DNA of 47,814 nucleotides from a virus, in the IMG/VR virus record IMGVR_UViG_3300036861_000447, positions 1 to 47,814 of that record. One strand, 5' to 3'. The notes beneath the pieces are model-generated. The model saw only the letters and a list, made by a program, of their open reading frames with translations. It was not told the DNA's origin and did no database searches. Shown here piece after piece: positions 16,632-33,618 of the stretch (the stretch's first letter is position 1; every line of letters begins with the position of its first letter). The translations under genes and the position numbers were made by a program.

Positions 16632-17023
16632 CGGCCCGGCGTCCGGTAATAAGTCCAGATCACCTCATGCTCGTGTGCCGGCGGCTCGGCCACGCCGACA
16701 TGCAGGAAGTCCGGCCCGATCCCGAGGCGTCGGAAGCCGGCGGCCAGGGCCGCCGTGACCATCTCCCACCGCTGGCGGCTCGAGGGACACGCGAGATCGG
16801 CGCCCATGAGCGGGTCGGTGATGTGCTCGCTGTCGGGCACCCCGCCGACCTGGGCATTCCACGCGGGGCATCGGGCCCCGCTCGTGATGGTGATCGGCGC
16901 CCCATAGGCGGCCCGCATCGTCTCCAACGTCTGGATCAAGGCCGGAGCGATCCGGGCCGAGGCCTCGCAGGCCCCCCGGCCGCAGCGACAGGCGAACTCG
17001 CGCTCGGAGAAATGGGCACTCAT
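16628..17023 (-). CDS. Endolysin, peptidase M15 family
   Basis: 131 residues. Zinc D-Ala-D-Ala-type or L-Ala-D-Glu peptidase that would cut peptidoglycan peptides. Motifs: TSGARCPAWNAQVGG (48-61), SEHITDPLMGADLAC with ligands H67 and D76 (two residues longer than the usual SxHxxGxAxD spacing), and DFLHVGV with H108. No signal peptide, so export needs the holin. Start by ATGA overlap. Confidence 0.88.
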   Translation of the reverse strand: MSAHFSEREFACRCGRGACEASARIAPALIQTLETMRAAYGAPITITSGARCPAWNAQVGGVPDSEHITDPLMGADLACPSSRQRWEMVTAALAAGFRRLGIGPDFLHVGVAEPPAHEHEVIWTYYRTPGR

Positions 17024-24084: not shown

Positions 24085-25677
24085 TTACCCGAGGCTCCCC
24101 GCGCGGGCCAAGCCCGCCGATTCGAGTTGGAGCGTCAGGCTGTGCGGCTCGCAATCGATATCCTGGCTCCCCTGGCTGATCTCGATCTGGAGTTCCTTGA
24201 ACTGGCCCTCCATGTCGAAGGCCACGGCCGAGGCTTGGCTCGCCACCAAACTGTCCACGTCGAGATCGAACGCGGCGCCGGGATAGGTCGGCGCGGGCGA
24301 GGTCGCGGTGTCCCCCAGAAGATCCCCGCCCCCCGCTTGGGTGATGCTGACCGACTGCGGCGTGTGGTCGTCGCGCTGCCATTGGAGGGTGAAGGTCGCG
24401 TTCTTCTGGACGAACCCGACCCGCCCCTCCACCGCCGTCTTGTCCACCATCGCGGAGCCAAAATCCAGCCGCGGCCACGTCGCCCGGAAGGTGTACGAGG
24501 TCATATCCAGATCGCGGGGCACCCGGTTCCCGCGCCACACCCGCCCCGTGTAGGTGCCGAACCACGGCACCGTTTCCTGGTTCGTGTCGAGCACCATCCC
24601 GATGGACCCGACGGGGTAGGCCGGCCAGCGGAAGAACCGCGGGGGGTCGAAGCGGTAGTCCCAGCCGAGGATGACGTCGTGGGTCGAGGAGCCCGAGAGC
24701 GTGGCCGTCCACAGGGCATACCCGGCCGAGGGGAAGTTCGCGCCCCACACGAAGTCGAAGCGCCCGTGGTTCAGCGCCTTCGTGAACCAGGAGCGGATGG
24801 GCGCCGAGACGAACCCCTCCACGTAGTCCCCGTAGGCATTCGTCGCCACCAGGGAATGGATGCCGCGGTGGTCCCACCAGAGGAGATCGTCGCCCCGCCG
24901 CAGGAGCGCCTGCTGATTGGTGGCGCCGACCCCCGTGATGTAGGGGACCAGGGCGAAGTCCGAGGGCGTCGAGCCGGTCAGCCGGAGGATCGCGCCGCGC
25001 GCGGGGCCTTTCCAGATCAGCAGCTCGTTCCGATGGGAGGCCAGCGCGGTGATCGTGTCGCCGTCGTCCGGCCGGACGTCGATGGAGCCGGAGCCCGCGC
25101 CCACCCAGTCCTCGGGGTTGCCTTGGGCGCAATAGTAGAGACGGGACTTGGCCGACTCCACGCCCGCCGCGAACATCCGGTCCTTGTGCTGGACGTGGAA
25201 CGAAAAGTTCGGCGGCGTGCCGCCGAGATCCGCAAACGTCGTCTGGTTCCACTTCCACGGAACATCCGTGGTCGAGGTCGTCGCCAGCACAATCAGGTCG
25301 TTCATCACCTCGGCCCACGGCATCTTTGCCGCCTCGATCCCCGCCTTGATCGCGGTGAGCGTGCCCGCCCCCGCCTCCGAGTAGATCGACGTCCCCGCGA
25401 AGATGACTTTCCGCTGGGTGGCCGCGCCGGAGCTGTTCGACTTCCAGTAGTCGAAGATCCCGATGACGTGATCGGTGGCGCCCGTCGCCGTGGCGTTGAC
25501 CCGGCCCGCGCCCGGCATCTTCGCGGGCCAGCCGTCGAGGCTGTAGATCAGGTTGTCCGCCGTCACCAGCCACGGCACCATCAGCCGCCCGGTCTGATCC
25601 GGCGGGGCCGAAAAGATCGGCCCCAGCTCCGTGTTCCAGCCCCCCCCGAGCCCCAGCGAGACGAGTTGGCGCGCCAC
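24085..25677 (-). CDS. Tail nozzle / stabilisation protein (P22 gp10, T7 gp12-like)
   Basis: 530 residues, all-beta. Repeated blades such as HVIGIFDYWK, RLYYCAQGNPEDWVGAGSGS and LLIWKGPARGAILRLTGS suggest a beta propeller, as in podovirus nozzle proteins that close the tail and hold packaged DNA. Begins at the base after the adaptor gene's stop, the order seen in podoviruses. Assignment by pattern and context. Confidence 0.65.
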   Translation of the reverse strand: MARQLVSLGLGGGWNTELGPIFSAPPDQTGRLMVPWLVTADNLIYSLDGWPAKMPGAGRVNATATGATDHVIGIFDYWKSNSSGAATQRKVIFAGTSIYSEAGAGTLTAIKAGIEAAKMPWAEVMNDLIVLATTSTTDVPWKWNQTTFADLGGTPPNFSFHVQHKDRMFAAGVESAKSRLYYCAQGNPEDWVGAGSGSIDVRPDDGDTITALASHRNELLIWKGPARGAILRLTGSTPSDFALVPYITGVGATNQQALLRRGDDLLWWDHRGIHSLVATNAYGDYVEGFVSAPIRSWFTKALNHGRFDFVWGANFPSAGYALWTATLSGSSTHDVILGWDYRFDPPRFFRWPAYPVGSIGMVLDTNQETVPWFGTYTGRVWRGNRVPRDLDMTSYTFRATWPRLDFGSAMVDKTAVEGRVGFVQKNATFTLQWQRDDHTPQSVSITQAGGGDLLGDTATSPAPTYPGAAFDLDVDSLVASQASAVAFDMEGQFKELQIEISQGSQDIDCEPHSLTLQLESAGLARAGSLG

Positions 25678-26706
25678 CTAATCCTCGAGGGTGTCGAACC
25701 GCGTGTCGGTGCTGTAGCGCCGCCGCCGGCCTGATTGATAGGGCGCCTGCGCCGCCCCCTGGTAGCCGAGCATCGCGGGGGCCAGGCGCGGCCGGTCGGC
25801 GATGGGGCTCGTGCTGCTGCGCGCCCGCGCGAGGATCGCGTCCGCCTCCGCGCGGTAGGTGTCGGCGCGCGCGTCGTCCTTGCGATCCCGCGTCCAACAC
25901 TCCAGCGCCTTCCGCACGAGGGCCTGGCGGAAGCGCGGGGGCACGATCGGCTCGTCACTGGCCGCGCTCAGGTTCGCCTGCCCGGTCCCCGTGCTGCTCA
26001 CCGCGAGGTTCGTCGTGTAGTAGCGGTAGGGCAGGAGGTAGGTCCGGTCGGGCGCGGGGCCGAACAGAATCCGCGGCCGGAGGCTGGTCGAGCCCGAGGG
26101 CCCCAGCTCGATCAGGCAGGCCACCTCCGGCGGGCCCCGCCGGGTATTCCGCGCGAAGCGGTGGTAGAACGCCCGCGCTCCGAGGAGCGGGATCTTCCGA
26201 TCCTCCGTGAAGTACCGGGCGTCGATCGGCCGGTCGAAGTCGGCCGCCAGCGCGTACTCATCCTCGGTGTACTGGTAGGTCGCGCCCGACAGGGCCGTGG
26301 TCCCCACGTAGCGGTCTTGGAGCGTGAGGCTGGTATCGTTGCTCACGCTGGCGACCTCGTAGGGATCGAGCCCCCCCGCGAAGGTCAGCTTCCCGCCCGC
26401 CCGGACGTTGTTGAACCCCATGCCGGTCACCGCGGTATTCCACAGCGTGCTGGTCCCCGTCACCGTCGTCCGGGTCGCCAGCGCGATCGCCACGGTCCCC
26501 GTGCTGTAGCCGGGATGGGTGAGGATCGTCGCCCGCCGCTCCGCCCACGGCCAGCCGTCCGGCTCCTGGTGAATCTCCTGGAGCGCCTTGTTCACATAGC
26601 GGTCGGCGACCGCGTTGATCGCGGAGTCCCCCGTGACTTCCTTGAGCGCGTTCAAGAAGTCCGTGCGAAGCTCGCTGAGGGTAGCCGGGCTATCCGTGGT
26701 CGCCAT
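25678..26706 (-). CDS. Tail adaptor protein (T7 gp11-like role)
   Basis: 342 residues. Helical N-terminus (RTDFLNALKEVTGDSAINAV), then an Ig-like beta insertion (TVTGTSTLWNTAVTG to SNDTSLTLQDRYVGT) common in phage adaptors, and a helical C-terminal end (RADTYRAEADAILARAR). Would sit between portal and nozzle. No sequence search was done. Confidence 0.6.
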   Translation of the reverse strand: MATTDSPATLSELRTDFLNALKEVTGDSAINAVADRYVNKALQEIHQEPDGWPWAERRATILTHPGYSTGTVAIALATRTTVTGTSTLWNTAVTGMGFNNVRAGGKLTFAGGLDPYEVASVSNDTSLTLQDRYVGTTALSGATYQYTEDEYALAADFDRPIDARYFTEDRKIPLLGARAFYHRFARNTRRGPPEVACLIELGPSGSTSLRPRILFGPAPDRTYLLPYRYYTTNLAVSSTGTGQANLSAASDEPIVPPRFRQALVRKALECWTRDRKDDARADTYRAEADAILARARSSTSPIADRPRLAPAMLGYQGAAQAPYQSGRRRRYSTDTRFDTLED

Positions 26707-26870: not shown

Positions 26871-27089
26871 TCAGCCCTCCCGGGGCGGTCCGAGCGTGAG
26901 CGACATCGGCTGCGCGAGCCCGCGGGCGGCCTGCCCCAGCCGCCGGATCATGGCGAGACCCCGCCGCGGGAGATTCGGGGCGCAGGTCTCGCAGATCCAG
27001 GCATCACAGAGCCCGCAGTACGCGGTGCGCTTTGGGGTGGCGTCCTCGTCCACCAGCCAGCACACATCGCAGCGGAGGTTCTCAGCCAT
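26871..27089 (-). CDS. Zinc-finger protein (B-box/RING-like spacing)
   Basis: 72 residues: CDVCWLVDEDATPKRTAYCG then LCDAWICETC, giving three CxxC-type pairs (residues 7-36), enough for two zinc sites. Joined to the tailspike gene by TAATG. Odd to find between tailspike and adaptor genes. Confidence 0.65.
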   Translation of the reverse strand: MAENLRCDVCWLVDEDATPKRTAYCGLCDAWICETCAPNLPRRGLAMIRRLGQAARGLAQPMSLTLGPPREG

Positions 27090-29752
27090 TACGAGATGCC
27101 CCCACAGACGACGTGGTACTTGTCACTGGTCGCGGGGGCGGTCCCGTTCGTGGTCACCGTGACGGTGGTGGTCGTGGTGGCGACCACGATGGCCGTCTTG
27201 CCGACGACCATGCCGGCGAGGGCCGGGAAGACGGCGCACGCTGGGGCGGTGGCCCACGTCCCGTTGAAGGTCACGACCCACCCCGACGCCGGTGAGCCGC
27301 TGGACCCCATCGTCACGGTCATGAAGGTGTCGGACCCGCTGACGCTCGGGGAGGTGCCGCAGTTCGAGGAGCACGTCGGCGCCGTCTGCTGGGCGGTGCG
27401 GATCTGGGTGCCCGTGGAGGTCGCGCCCGTGGTGACCCCGAACTGGAGCGTCCCCGCGCGCTGCAACTCCAGCGTGCGGGAGCCCGCGCCGCTGGCGGTG
27501 TTGGTCAGGTTGACTTGAAGCAACCCGGGGACGACGCCCGTGGTGTTGTACGTGCCGGTGATCGGGTGGAGCACTGTGGTGCCCGAGCCGGTCACGGAGC
27601 CCCCGGTGACCGTCAGCGCGGCGGCGTCGTTCCGCCCGGTGATGGTGGTGGTCGTGGCGTTGGTCGTCGCGATCTTGACCGACCCCGAGGACGCCGCAGT
27701 GTCGATCAGGAAGTCAGTGGCGTCGTGCTTGAGCAGGCCATACTTGGGGCCGGTCGTGGTGCCGAAGATGTCGAGTTCCTGGGCGTTGGTCCCGCGCACG
27801 AGGGCAATGCGGTCGGCCGCCTGCCGGCTCAGGCAGGCATCGACCGAGCCAATCGTCCCGAATCCGAATTGGCAGTCGGCGGTGCCGCCGAGGATTTCGA
27901 CCTTGCCGCCGCTCGCCGTACTGAACAGGCGGAAGCGGACGGCACTAGCATTGCTCCAGTCCCACGCATTCGCCGCCCCGCGGAACCAGCCGGCCGTCTG
28001 GCCATCGGCGGAGAAGAAGAGGCTTGTGGTCCCGGCGGCCCCGGAGGCCAGCTTCGCTTGCCCGGTCAGCGTCAGGTCGGTAAGCGTCGGCGTGGCACTG
28101 TAGGCCGGCGGCGTCCCGCTCGTGAGCACTTGGCCGGCGCTCGCATTGGCGAGCGAAGTGGGCGTGGCCCCGGCGCCGCCGCCGAGGATCAGGGCATTGG
28201 CGGTCAGGAGTCCCGAGGACGCGAGGGTGCCGGTCGCGGTGAACCCGAGGATGCCTCCATCGGTGCCCGCGGTGAGCCCGGTTCCCCCGTCCCCGACGCC
28301 GAGCGTGCCCGTGATGTCTTTCGTCGCCCCCGAGAGCCGCACCGCGCCGTAGAGCGGGCTGATGCCGGCGCCCGCCCCACGGAGCACCGTACCGTCGGCC
28401 CCGGCTGCGATGCGGGTGAACCCCGTCGTGGAATTGGCGGCGAGAAGATCGCCGATCGCCTGACTGGCAATGGCCAGATGGGCGGCGTTGAGCTTGTCGG
28501 CGACGTTTCCGATCAACGTGTTGGACCCCGCCACCAGCTTCCCGGCGGTGTTCAGGCTGACGTCGCCGCCCGCGAAGCCACCGCCGACGTTCCAGGCGCG
28601 GCCGAAGGTCGCAGACCCACCCGGGGTCAGCGTCACGGACCCGGGATCGAAGTGGTTACCGCTCAGGGTCAGGTGCCCGTTCCAGGTCACCGTGCCCACG
28701 CCGAGAAAGTTCCCGATGAGGGTGGCCCGCGAACTCGTGTCCGTGAATCGGATTTCCGGCGTCCCGCCGGTGGTCAGGTAGGACCCGACGAGCGTGAACA
28801 CGCTGCGGGTCGTCCCGGCCCAGTCGATGAGCACGGGGCCCGCGGCCCCGCCCTTTTTGAAGAAGCCCGTGATGGCCAGGGAGCCGTCGGTCACCGCCGC
28901 CATGCGAGCCAGATTGGACGAGCCTTCGGAGTAGCCGCCGGTGACGGAGCTGCCGTGGCGCTGGGTCCCGGCCAGGTCGAAGTCCCAGCCGGTCACCGCG
29001 AACGCTACCCCATAGGCGTGGAAGCTCCCGCCGTTCGTGCGCACGCCCACCGAGGCGGTGGCCGAGGGGGCCGAGCAGGTCAGGCCGAAGAACCGGTGCC
29101 CTAGGCTATTGCTGTGCTCGATCGAGACGCAGGCGCTGGTGACATTGAGGATCTTGACGTTGTGGAGCACGCTCTCGGCGTTGTTCGTGTCCACATCGGC
29201 GGTGTACCGCACCCCATTGGTGAGGCTGTCCGCCGTGGTGGAGCCGAGGAGGACATGGCTGACGATATTGTTAGTGGGCGCGAAGCCCCCCGCCGCGCCC
29301 CGGTGGTACTGAATCCCGGCCGCAGGCGCGGAGGCGTGCCCGAGGATGCCGAGGTCGCGGATGAGGCTGTCGCGGTTGTTCGTGAGCTTCAGGACGCCCA
29401 GACCCGCCAAGGCGGCCGTCGGCGCGAGCTGGCTGGAGGCCATCCCCGCGCCCTCGATGACGAAGCCCTCCCGGTTGCTGATCGTGAGCTGGGCGGAGAC
29501 CTTGTAGACGCCGCGGGGAAAATAAACCCGCCCCTGGGAGGTAGCCATCGCGTCAAAGGCCGCTTGGATCGCCACCGTGTCGTCAGCCACGCCGTCGCCC
29601 ACCGCGCCGTACTGCTCCACTACGTTGGTCCATGCGCGATGCGAGCCGTCCGCGTTGTGCCCGATCGAGAGGTAGGCGTTGAGCACGTCGCCCCAGTTAT
29701 TGGAGTCGAGCGAGCCGTTCGCCGTGTTCCAGACGTAGGGGAGTCGGGCCAT
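27089..29752 (-). CDS. Tailspike with pectate-lyase-type beta helix
   Basis: 887 residues. Short head (1-42) for attachment to the virion, then YGAVGDGVADDTVAIQAAFD (48-67), the hallmark start of phage right-handed beta-helix spikes. A long repetitive Gly/Ser/Thr helix follows to about 760. The C-terminus has a Cys-containing tip (CSSNCGTSPSVSG ... ATSDKYHVVCGG) found on many phage fibres. It would bind, and perhaps cut, surface polysaccharide. No S74 chaperone is present. Confidence 0.82.
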   Translation of the reverse strand: MARLPYVWNTANGSLDSNNWGDVLNAYLSIGHNADGSHRAWTNVVEQYGAVGDGVADDTVAIQAAFDAMATSQGRVYFPRGVYKVSAQLTISNREGFVIEGAGMASSQLAPTAALAGLGVLKLTNNRDSLIRDLGILGHASAPAAGIQYHRGAAGGFAPTNNIVSHVLLGSTTADSLTNGVRYTADVDTNNAESVLHNVKILNVTSACVSIEHSNSLGHRFFGLTCSAPSATASVGVRTNGGSFHAYGVAFAVTGWDFDLAGTQRHGSSVTGGYSEGSSNLARMAAVTDGSLAITGFFKKGGAAGPVLIDWAGTTRSVFTLVGSYLTTGGTPEIRFTDTSSRATLIGNFLGVGTVTWNGHLTLSGNHFDPGSVTLTPGGSATFGRAWNVGGGFAGGDVSLNTAGKLVAGSNTLIGNVADKLNAAHLAIASQAIGDLLAANSTTGFTRIAAGADGTVLRGAGAGISPLYGAVRLSGATKDITGTLGVGDGGTGLTAGTDGGILGFTATGTLASSGLLTANALILGGGAGATPTSLANASAGQVLTSGTPPAYSATPTLTDLTLTGQAKLASGAAGTTSLFFSADGQTAGWFRGAANAWDWSNASAVRFRLFSTASGGKVEILGGTADCQFGFGTIGSVDACLSRQAADRIALVRGTNAQELDIFGTTTGPKYGLLKHDATDFLIDTAASSGSVKIATTNATTTTITGRNDAAALTVTGGSVTGSGTTVLHPITGTYNTTGVVPGLLQVNLTNTASGAGSRTLELQRAGTLQFGVTTGATSTGTQIRTAQQTAPTCSSNCGTSPSVSGSDTFMTVTMGSSGSPASGWVVTFNGTWATAPACAVFPALAGMVVGKTAIVVATTTTTVTVTTNGTAPATSDKYHVVCGGIS

Positions 29753-29755
29753 GGC

Positions 29756-29854
29756 TCAGGCGCCACCGTAGCCGGAGGTGCCGTAGCGGAGGGCCCCGTA
29801 GCCCGCCGCCCACCGCCCGTACCACCCCGCGCCGTAGGTCAGCCGTCCATACAT
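29756..29854 (-). CDS. 32-residue Tyr/Gly-repeat peptide
   Basis: Begins MYGRLTYGAGWYG and continues GYG-ALRYGTSGYG: YG every four to six residues. Stop is three bases before the tailspike ATG. Shares YGRLxYGxGxYG with the gene above it, so the two look like diverged duplicates. Confidence 0.55.
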   Translation of the reverse strand: MYGRLTYGAGWYGRWAAGYGALRYGTSGYGGA

Positions 29855-29857
29855 GCG

Positions 29858-30013
29858 TCAGCTCCGCCGGGCATCGCCGTAGAACCCGGTGCCGTAGGAC
29901 AGCCGGCCGTAGGCGCCGAGATCGAAGAGGACCTCCCCATGGCTATCTTTGATCTGGCCCTGCCGCCGGAGGACCCACCAGGCCCACGGCACCAGCCGCC
30001 GCGCGAGGCGCAC
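29858..30013 (-). CDS. 51-residue protein with Tyr/Gly-repeat tail
   Basis: GTG start three bases after the previous stop. Basic, Trp-rich head (RLARRLVPWAWWVLRRQGQ), then LGAYGRLSYGTGFYGDARRS. The tail repeats the YGRLxYGxGxYG motif of the next gene. Could be a small virion or spike-associated peptide; no function known. Confidence 0.55.
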   Translation of the reverse strand: MRLARRLVPWAWWVLRRQGQIKDSHGEVLFDLGAYGRLSYGTGFYGDARRS

Positions 30014-30016
30014 CGG

Positions 30017-30532
30017 CTAGGCTCCGGCCAGCGCTCGGAAGCGCGCGAGCTTGTCCTCGAAGGTCTGCCGGGCGGCATCGGCGGCCGCACGGGCGGCCTG
30101 CGCCTCGGTTTGGGCCGCGAGCGCGGCCTCTTTGGCGGCGACCGCCTCCGCGATGACCCGGTGGGCCGCCCGCTCGGCCTCCATGGCGGCATCGAGCTGC
30201 GCTCGGCCCGCCTCGAGCCGCCCCTCCCAGTCGCGCCGCCACGTGGCGGCCTCCACCTCTGCCCGGAGGCGCAGGGCGTGGGCCTCGTTGGCGGCGGCGT
30301 GGCGGGCCTCGTCGGCCTCGGCCCGGAAGGCGAGGGCTTCGGCCCGCGCGGCGTCGGCTTGGGCCCGGAGGCTGTCGGCCTCCTCCAGCGTGGCGGCGAT
30401 GGCGAGGGCCTGATCGAGTGCCGCGTGGGCCTCGGCCAGCTGCGTCAGATGGGCCTGCATCTGCTGGGGGTCGCCGAGGAGATCGAGCAACCGCTGCACA
30501 TCGCTGATGACGGGCGCCGTCACTTTGGGCAT
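30017..30532 (-). CDS. Alanine-rich coiled-coil protein
   Basis: 171 residues, almost wholly heptad-like (residues 25-160; A, E, R and L dominate) with a short head MPKVTAPVISDVQRLLDLLG. Located amid adhesin genes, it may be a fibre stalk or assembly chaperone. Confidence 0.7.
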   Translation of the reverse strand: MPKVTAPVISDVQRLLDLLGDPQQMQAHLTQLAEAHAALDQALAIAATLEEADSLRAQADAARAEALAFRAEADEARHAAANEAHALRLRAEVEAATWRRDWEGRLEAGRAQLDAAMEAERAAHRVIAEAVAAKEAALAAQTEAQAARAAADAARQTFEDKLARFRALAGA

Positions 30533-30535
30533 GGG

Positions 30536-31546
30536 TTACCCCGACATCAGGCCGCGATTGACGTACCCCGCGCTCGACAGCACGGGGGCGCTCGGCGTCC
30601 CGAGGGTGACCCACGCCTGGGGGTTCGTCCCCGTGAGCTGGCAGTAGGCCCCGCGCTTCAGTTGGATCGGCGTGGCCAGGCCCGGGGATTGATCGCTGGC
30701 CGTGACGTTCCGCACGTAGGCGACGGGTTCGCGCGAGAAGGTCGGGTCGGTACTGGTGTAGATGTCGGTGTCGAGGATGGTCAGCACCGCATCGGTCCCG
30801 GTGCCCGTCAGATGGACCTCCTCGATCGTGACCGGCCCCACGAAGGCGGCGAGATCACGGGTCACCCACTGCGTGCGGATCGGGAACCGCGCCCGCGGGT
30901 AGACCCGGACGTCATCGGCGATGATGGCGCCCAGGAGGATCGTCCCCGTGTTCCCCGCCGCCGTGCCGCTCACCGCGCCGAATCGGGCCTGGGTGATGGC
31001 CGCCTGGTCGAGCCCCGTGATCTGGGCGCCGACGGGGGCCCCGTCCACGTAGAAGTCGAGCGTCCCGTCGTTGCCCACCCCCGAGTCGATGACGGCCGCC
31101 AGCTCGATCTGGTACCATCGGCTGTTGCTCCGCGTGATTGCGAGGGTCCGGGTCGCGCCCGTCTCGCCCGCGAACAATTCGTAGGTGCCGCTGTTGTTCC
31201 GCACGCCGACCACCGCCTCGCTCACCGGCCCCGCCGAATCGAGCGAGAAGAGCACCACGGTGTCCCCGGCCGTCAGCGTGAGGTCCGCGCCGATGCAGAC
31301 GGTGAACCACGTGTGAATCGTGCCGGCTAACGCCGTATCCCAGTCGCCGGTTTCCGTGATGACCCCGGTCGCGGTGCCGTTCAATCGCAGCCGCAGCGCG
31401 TGGCCGCCCTGCCAGGGGCTCAACCCCTTGAGGGCCAGGACCCGGTAGTCCGGGAAGTCCAGGATGTTGCTGGCATCCGTTTCCGAGTCGAAGTTCTGCC
31501 GCGTGCCGTCGTCGAAGTTGGAGTGGTGGAGCCACGGGTAGGCCAT
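30536..31546 (-). CDS. Lectin-like (jelly-roll) adhesin
   Basis: 336 residues. Residues 10-225 show the strand pattern of ConA/LamG jelly rolls: LHHSNFDDGT, HALRLRLNGTATG, SRWYQIELAAVIDSG, TLDFYVDGAPVGA, and IIADDVRVYP. A second beta domain follows. Likely a virion surface protein binding glycans. It starts MAYPW, similar in style to the MAYLT start of the next adhesin. Confidence 0.65.
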   Translation of the reverse strand: MAYPWLHHSNFDDGTRQNFDSETDASNILDFPDYRVLALKGLSPWQGGHALRLRLNGTATGVITETGDWDTALAGTIHTWFTVCIGADLTLTAGDTVVLFSLDSAGPVSEAVVGVRNNSGTYELFAGETGATRTLAITRSNSRWYQIELAAVIDSGVGNDGTLDFYVDGAPVGAQITGLDQAAITQARFGAVSGTAAGNTGTILLGAIIADDVRVYPRARFPIRTQWVTRDLAAFVGPVTIEEVHLTGTGTDAVLTILDTDIYTSTDPTFSREPVAYVRNVTASDQSPGLATPIQLKRGAYCQLTGTNPQAWVTLGTPSAPVLSSAGYVNRGLMSG

Positions 31547-32664: not shown

Positions 32665-33618
32665 CTAGGTGATCGCGGTGATCAGCACCCCGCCATCGGT
32701 CGCGCCGATGCCGAAGTCGTAGTTCTCGCTGATCTGCGCCTCGCCGGCATCGAAGTTGTCGATCGGGACGGTCACGTTCTCACCGAACTGGCAGTGATGG
32801 ATGCTCGCGCCATCCGCGACGGAGGCGCCCGTGCCGTCGATGCCCGCCGTGATGGTGCCGTTGAAGTCCAGGAAGTCGCACCGCCGGATCAGGCACCGAT
32901 CGGTGGCGGCCCCGACCGTGAGCGCCGCCGCCCACGTCCCGGCCTGCGCGGCGAAGGTGCAGTCCTGCACCAGCGCGTCCACGGTCGCCGTCACGTCGAG
33001 CCCGGCCCCGAAGGCGCCGTCCGAGAGGAAGTAGCAGCGCTCGACGGCGATCTGGGCCGCCGCCCCCGTGGCGTCCAGGCCGAGAATCGAGGTCGAGGCG
33101 GTCGCCGCGGTGAAGTCGAAGAGGCAGTCGTGGACGTAGAGGCCCGAGGCCGCTGCCGAGAAGTCCACGTAAGCCGAGCCCGTGATGGAGGCGTTGCCGA
33201 CGAAGCCGATGTGCGCGATCTCGACGTCGGCGGCGGTCACGTTGACGATCTGGTCGTTGGCGACGATCTCCAGGGTGACCCGCTTGCGGACGGGATTCCC
33301 GGCCCCGCTGTTGAGGCCCCAGAGCGTCAGCCCCGCCTTGTTGAGGGCGATCGACGTGGCCGTGGTCCCGCTGTCGTTGATCGCCGTGTGCGCCCCCGGC
33401 AGGAGCACGATCACGTCGCCGACGTTCGCGGTCGCCAGCGTGATCGCCCGGGCCACCGAGCGGAGGGCCCGCTCGGGCGAGAGCCCGTCGTTGCCGTCGC
33501 TTGCGTCGTAGGCCCGGCCGTCCACGGTGTAGGACGACGCGGGGGCGACCCAGAAGACGCGCCCCCCGGTCTGCGGGATGGCGCCCCAGAGAGCCCCGTA
33601 ACGAGTGAGATAGGCCAT
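32665..33618 (-). CDS. Beta-helix (pectin-lyase-like) virion protein
   Basis: 317 residues. YDASDGNDGLSPERALRSVA (37-56) and VGDVIVLLPGAHT (66-78) are the classic opening of DUF1565-like parallel beta helices. Repeated coils follow (VEIAHIGFVGN, LYVHDCLFDF, CLIRRCDFLDF). A second, tailspike-independent helix adhesin or hydrolase-like scaffold; active-site acids cannot be placed. Confidence 0.72.
   Translation of the reverse strand: MAYLTRYGALWGAIPQTGGRVFWVAPASSYTVDGRAYDASDGNDGLSPERALRSVARAITLATANVGDVIVLLPGAHTAINDSGTTATSIALNKAGLTLWGLNSGAGNPVRKRVTLEIVANDQIVNVTAADVEIAHIGFVGNASITGSAYVDFSAAASGLYVHDCLFDFTAATASTSILGLDATGAAAQIAVERCYFLSDGAFGAGLDVTATVDALVQDCTFAAQAGTWAAALTVGAATDRCLIRRCDFLDFNGTITAGIDGTGASVADGASIHHCQFGENVTVPIDNFDAGEAQISENYDFGIGATDGGVLITAIT

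Follow-up and report, generated by a model that had tools for sequence, protein, structure and literature searches.

Tailspikes and many tail fibres are homotrimers, and the way in which such appendages are attached to the phage tail has often not been worked out. In Klebsiella phages of the KP32 type, spikes are reportedly attached in two parts, through an anchor and a short N-terminal peptide of the second receptor-binding protein. The likeness to the locus described here is conceptual only, in that a short peptide probably keeps a receptor-binding protein attached to the virion, but in the KP32-type phages the peptide belongs to the spike itself and carries no YG motif. The authors of a study on LSH1 report that they could not find where its side fibre attaches (PMC13243795). 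A search of the open-access literature gave no relevant account of YG repeats in tails or of docking peptides there. Spike-attachment adaptors are a known kind, and within the open-access literature searched the pairing of motif and anchor, and its detached form, appear undescribed. With a short motif that predicts the fit between spike and tail, attachment could be read directly from sequence and tested in laboratory phages, and many unannotated genes immediately ahead of spikes would gain a function. The locus analysed here may add a minimal, detached version of such an element, in the form of two microproteins, ORF51 and ORF32, which we consider reasonably likely to be stand-alone forms of a widespread disordered docking peptide for the anchor of trimeric spikes.

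Two microproteins upstream of a tailspike

The window, that is, the whole stretch of DNA analysed, is a 47.8-kb virus record with 70% G+C that encodes a portal of the SU10 type and an HK97-type capsid protein. Its tail genes all lie on the minus strand, in the order LamG-like, coiled-coil, ORF51, ORF32, tailspike, adaptor and nozzle-like (Table 1). An earlier sequence-only reading had described two consecutive ORFs of 32 and 51 codons at this position that share YGRLxYGxGxYG; both ORFs were confirmed, on the minus strand, as was the shared motif, while a second block in ORF32 had been missed. The ORF51 block and both ORF32 blocks each hold three YG units at five-residue spacing (the pattern YG-x3-YG-x3-YG, hereafter tri-YG), and 28 of 36 nucleotides are identical between the YGRLxYGxGxYG stretches of the two ORFs. 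The same reading had drawn attention to a three-base spacing before the tailspike ATG. This is exact, and the gap between ORF51 and ORF32 is also 3 nt, but gaps of 3 nt occur at the LamG-like and coiled-coil genes as well, placing five genes in one frame. Because these preceding junctions have the same spacing, it is a habit of the window phage, not peculiar to the microproteins and not special in itself. The tailspike that follows ORF32 has NWGDVLNAYL in its N-terminal segment, so the ORFs adjoin a spike with a WGxxLNxxL anchor.

Table 1 Features of the tail-gene region of the window
Feature	Position	Strand	Remarks
LamG-like gene	30536-31546	minus	
Coiled-coil gene, 171 aa	30017-30532	minus	directly upstream of ORF51; same-length homologue in L031
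GGAG ribosome-binding site of ORF51	30022-30025	minus	8 nt ahead of start
ORF51, 51-aa microprotein, GTG start, VRLARRLVPWAWWVLRRQGQIKDSHGEVLFDLGAYGRLSYGTGFYGDARRS	29858-30013	minus	one tri-YG block at C-terminal end
ORF51 tri-YG block, YGRLSYGTGFYG	29876-29911	minus	from sequence
GGAG ribosome-binding site of ORF32	29862-29865	minus	7 nt ahead of start
ORF32, 32-aa microprotein, ATG start, MYGRLTYGAGWYGRWAAGYGALRYGTSGYGGA	29756-29854	minus	two tri-YG blocks, little besides
ORF32 tri-YG block 1, YGRLTYGAGWYG	29816-29851	minus	from sequence
ORF32 tri-YG block 2, YGALRYGTSGYG	29765-29800	minus	from sequence
Tailspike, 887 aa, pectate-lyase-like	27089-29752	minus	PF12708, E 1.1e-14; PHROG tail spike families
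WGxxLNxxL anchor core WGDVLNAYL, N-terminal segment of spike	29669-29695	minus	proposed YG partner; sequence, alignment, association
Tail protein, here termed adaptor	25678-26706	minus	
Nozzle-like protein	24085-25677	minus	phrog_5107/phrog_3287; without the YG loop of many other nozzles

Coding scores in the frame of ORF51 and ORF32 were +30.7 and +24.7 bits, respectively, comparable to those of accepted genes of the window phage, and were negative in every other frame; the ORF51 score was reached by 0.16% of wrong-frame segments. The motif occurred in 0 of 200,000 peptides simulated from the phage's own composition, and in shuffles of each ORF's own residues at frequencies of 0.3% (ORF32) and 5e-6 (ORF51). 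An origin of the ORFs by chance or as an antisense artefact is ruled out by these frame-specific coding scores and motif simulations. The six frames of the whole 47.8-kb window held no further YG triple, and neither ORF matched any Pfam or PHROG family at E ≤ 1.

Two other genes of this region are worth recording. An ORF of about 70 aa that follows the tailspike (26875-27090, minus) overlaps the tailspike stop (TAATG), has several Cys pairs (MAENLRCDVCWLVDEDATPKRTAYCGLCDAWICETC...) and resembles a small zinc-ribbon protein. A second beta-helix-like protein (32665-33618, minus), with the N-terminus MAYLTRYGALWGAIPQTGG, contains RYGALWG, which is similar to one YGxxx step of the motif, and is kept at 37-57% identity in many phages related to the window phage by their capsid protein.

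Distribution of the tri-YG element in other phages

The check proposed in the sequence-only reading, a search for YGRLxYG repeats beside spikes in other phages, recovered a recurrent element. The back-translated YGRLxYGxGxYG-like pattern was found in 19 viral stretches and the YGxGxYGxGxYG pattern in at least 120, and tri-YG is a recurrent phage tail element, not unique to the window phage. It occurs as a loop inside podovirus tail-nozzle propellers (phrog_3287; class A), as the N-terminus of proteins of about 160-300 aa whose gene lies directly before a tail fibre (class B), and as the C-terminal tail of a protein whose gene directly precedes a spike or fibre (class C). A double tri-YG like that of ORF32 is also present in the tails of L090 and L337, and a Streptomyces prophage (L193) has the same gene order, with YG before a pectate-lyase-type spike. 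Apart from L193, the C-terminal YG matches from one genome-contig scan were either bacterial proteins that are rich in YG but unrelated to the element or frames that arose by chance, and were rejected.

The window locus shares features with all three classes. Like the class-C tails (for example, L100, L112, L306 and L352), it has tri-YG with five-residue spacing in the gene immediately ahead of a spike or fibre with the anchor, separated by a gap of a few nucleotides, but in those phages the element is the tail of a larger protein (about 100 aa and upwards), whereas the window has two stand-alone microproteins. Similarly, class-B proteins such as phiM5 gp18 carry tri-YG and are encoded immediately before an anchored fibre, but have an Ala/Thr-repeat body, absent from the window ORFs, and a Trp-rich end. 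The podovirus nozzle loop has the same tri-YG motif and is disordered in the model, but is internal to a large beta-propeller, and the window's own nozzle-like protein has no such loop.

The class-B protein of Sinorhizobium phage phiM5 (phiM5_18; gp18, ARV77520.1; MSYGRGTYGKALYG...) precedes the host-binding fibre phiM5_19. In the proteome of the phage particle, its neighbours phiM5_17 and phiM5_19 are flagged as detected and phiM5_18 is not. As evidence, the non-detection of this one protein is weak, but it would agree, as does the gene position immediately ahead of the spike, with YG proteins that are not part of the virion and act in the cell as chaperones of spike or fibre assembly. Such a role is unlikely given that the class-C tri-YG tails sit on proteins matching virion families, namely the tail protein phrog_11649 and the neck terminator PF23961, and that the class-A element belongs to the nozzle.

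Size raises a second alternative. Complete tri-YG carriers elsewhere are at least 107 aa long, and the window, with ORFs of 51 and 32 aa, has no larger carrier protein. ORF51 and ORF32 could then be decayed remnants of a lost larger carrier, as the tri-YG of other phages lies on proteins of at least 100 aa and a duplicated block is common to both ORFs, or they could be translation leaders whose function is only translation coupling to the spike. We regard this as quite improbable, as the starts, the ribosome-binding sites, the coding-like codon use and the perfect tri-YG spacing are all intact. Other stand-alone YG microproteins were not found among the viral loci examined.

Association with the WGxxLNxxL anchor

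The association of tri-YG with the anchor was measured in both directions. In the forward test, the anchor pattern W-x2-5-[LIVTAF]N-x2-[LFWYI] was scored at the N-terminus of the next gene and was present for 37 of 40 class-B/C YG genes versus 30 of 892 genes without YG; it was present in 3 of 52 genes following internal-YG genes. In the reverse test, loci were chosen by the anchor GQxxWGxxLNxAL alone, with no reference to YG, and 62 of the 64 upstream genes that could be used ended in the tri-repeat, versus 0 of 492 other ORFs from the same loci. Of these 62 genes, 60 satisfied the strict rule, and in L305 and L321 a single Y is replaced by F. Fisher p-values are extreme for these comparisons but overstate independence, as many of the sampled loci are related. 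The two exceptions are Streptomyces BRock-type fibres, which are anchored but have another fibre, without YG, as the upstream gene. With their tails removed, the upstream proteins fell into five clusters without mutual similarity and, judged by this comparison, the association of tri-YG and anchor spans at least five unrelated upstream protein families. On sequence grounds, the tie of tri-YG to the spike is strongly supported.

The anchor of the window spike (MARLP...NWGDVLNAYLSIGHNADGS) is of a different subtype from the GQ..WG..LN..AL set. Only one other spike of this subtype was seen within a tail module (L143), and there the YG element is in the next gene and not in the preceding one. A third protein with the window-subtype anchor is encoded by Streptomyces phage LuckySocke at a place away from the tail module, and searches for anchor homologues at the level of the genus Streptomyces and its order returned few matches.

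Relatives of the window phage

The capsid protein of the window phage is 52-66% identical to that of 21 viral loci in which a syntenic block is kept. The stretch from the LamG gene to the adaptor is variable among these loci, and the tailspike and YG triple are absent from all 21. In one of them, L031, a coiled-coil protein of the same 171-aa length (30% identity) is retained, with other genes after it and neither ORF51 nor ORF32. Judged by their absence from the relatives, ORF51, ORF32 and the spike appear to have been acquired together as a cassette. In relatives with the flanking genes (LamG gene, adaptor and nozzle, plus the coiled-coil gene in L031), the tailspike is missing together with the ORFs, and the absence of the ORFs, which the sequence-only reading had named as a refutation, is therefore not decisive. 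Searches of viral contigs and phage records recovered no relatives of ORF51, the LamG gene, the portal or the spike N-terminus, and tblastn with ORF32 gave no match, perhaps because of the low-complexity filter.

The coiled-coil gene, ORF51, ORF32 and the spike share one frame with single stops between them, and readthrough of these stops would yield a spike with N-terminal YG blocks or would extend the coiled-coil protein by a YG tail. This is very improbable, given that three-base gaps are common in the window phage and also separate 12 of 65 anchor gene pairs elsewhere, that each ORF begins at a start codon of its own and each microprotein also has a GGAG, and that the L031 homologue of the coiled-coil protein is no longer or shorter.

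L031 also encodes a 45-aa ORF (MIRTVVTRGYASGGAIKFVVTRGYAIGGGAPVATSRHLLLLGAGT; 16881-17018, plus) with a 13-residue GY repeat just before its adaptor gene, which is a different repeat microprotein at a comparable location.

Repeat number and predicted structure

Among 43 distinct element-bearing tails chosen by anchor alone, the period-5 run was exactly three in 41; of the remaining two, one had three plus three and the other scored four only because YD was counted. With tailspikes and many fibres being homotrimeric, this repeat number suggests one YG unit per spike subunit. The model of a class-A nozzle has a mean pLDDT of 88.6 and a fold matching the nozzles of Pa223, VP1, SU10, P22 (gp10) and Sf6. 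Its only segment below 50 is the YG loop (residues 107-127), on which basis the element in the nozzle is predicted to be a flexible loop, in keeping with a peptide that becomes structured when it binds a partner. A natural in-frame fusion of a YG tail and an anchor was modelled with low confidence (pLDDT 61), with the YG part disordered and no docking, and no solved structures containing the phiM5 YG protein or fibre were found.

The suggestion made in the sequence-only reading that these are adhesive or phase-separating Tyr/Gly peptides, to which their composition points, is the least credible explanation and is unsupported, as the number of units is fixed at three, the element goes with a single type of anchor and lies in the termini or loops of ordinary tail proteins, and the repeats are short tri-repeats, with no long low-complexity YG tract. 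Of the broader role in spike assembly or adhesion proposed there, spike assembly gains support from the two-way association in unrelated phages, whereas adhesion does not.

Proposed docking role

In the proposed mechanism, a flexible tri-YG element, which elsewhere forms a C-terminal tail, an N-terminal tail or a loop, would bind the WGxxLNxxL anchor at the N-terminus of the neighbouring spike or fibre, with its three YG units matched to the three spike subunits. In the window phage, this peptide would have been split off as two tiny genes translated just before the spike, and their products, acting as separate peptides in the virion, may attach the base of the spike to the tail or stabilise it there. 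Sequence, association, repeat number and predicted flexibility were computed, and from these we infer binding, the three-to-three match and presence in the virion. A docking role is supported because both the forward and reverse tests link tri-YG to anchored spikes, and because the capsid-protein relatives without the spike are also without the YG ORFs. It is weakened by the divergent anchor subtype of the window spike and the lack of a second stand-alone YG microprotein, by the BRock-type fibres that have the anchor without YG upstream, and by the unflagged phiM5_18. More tentatively, and short of an even chance in our estimation, docking could follow a general rule of tailed phages, whereby tri-YG, with one unit per subunit, sockets WGxxLN trimeric spikes and fibres in podo-, sipho- and myoviruses, the socket of the window phage having been cut free as adaptor microproteins.

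Other repeats were seen in genes that precede anchored fibres and carry no YG. In Microcystis phage MJing1 (L288, 3703-3999, plus), the product of this gene starts MEEAFLRSAFQNDTFQTG, and its period-5 FQ motif may be an alternative docking repeat. In Octadecabacter virus DB2 (L284, 2468-3994, plus), the corresponding protein has a repeated ETW-x-Q/E-x end, and similar W-rich ends are also found in class-B YG proteins.
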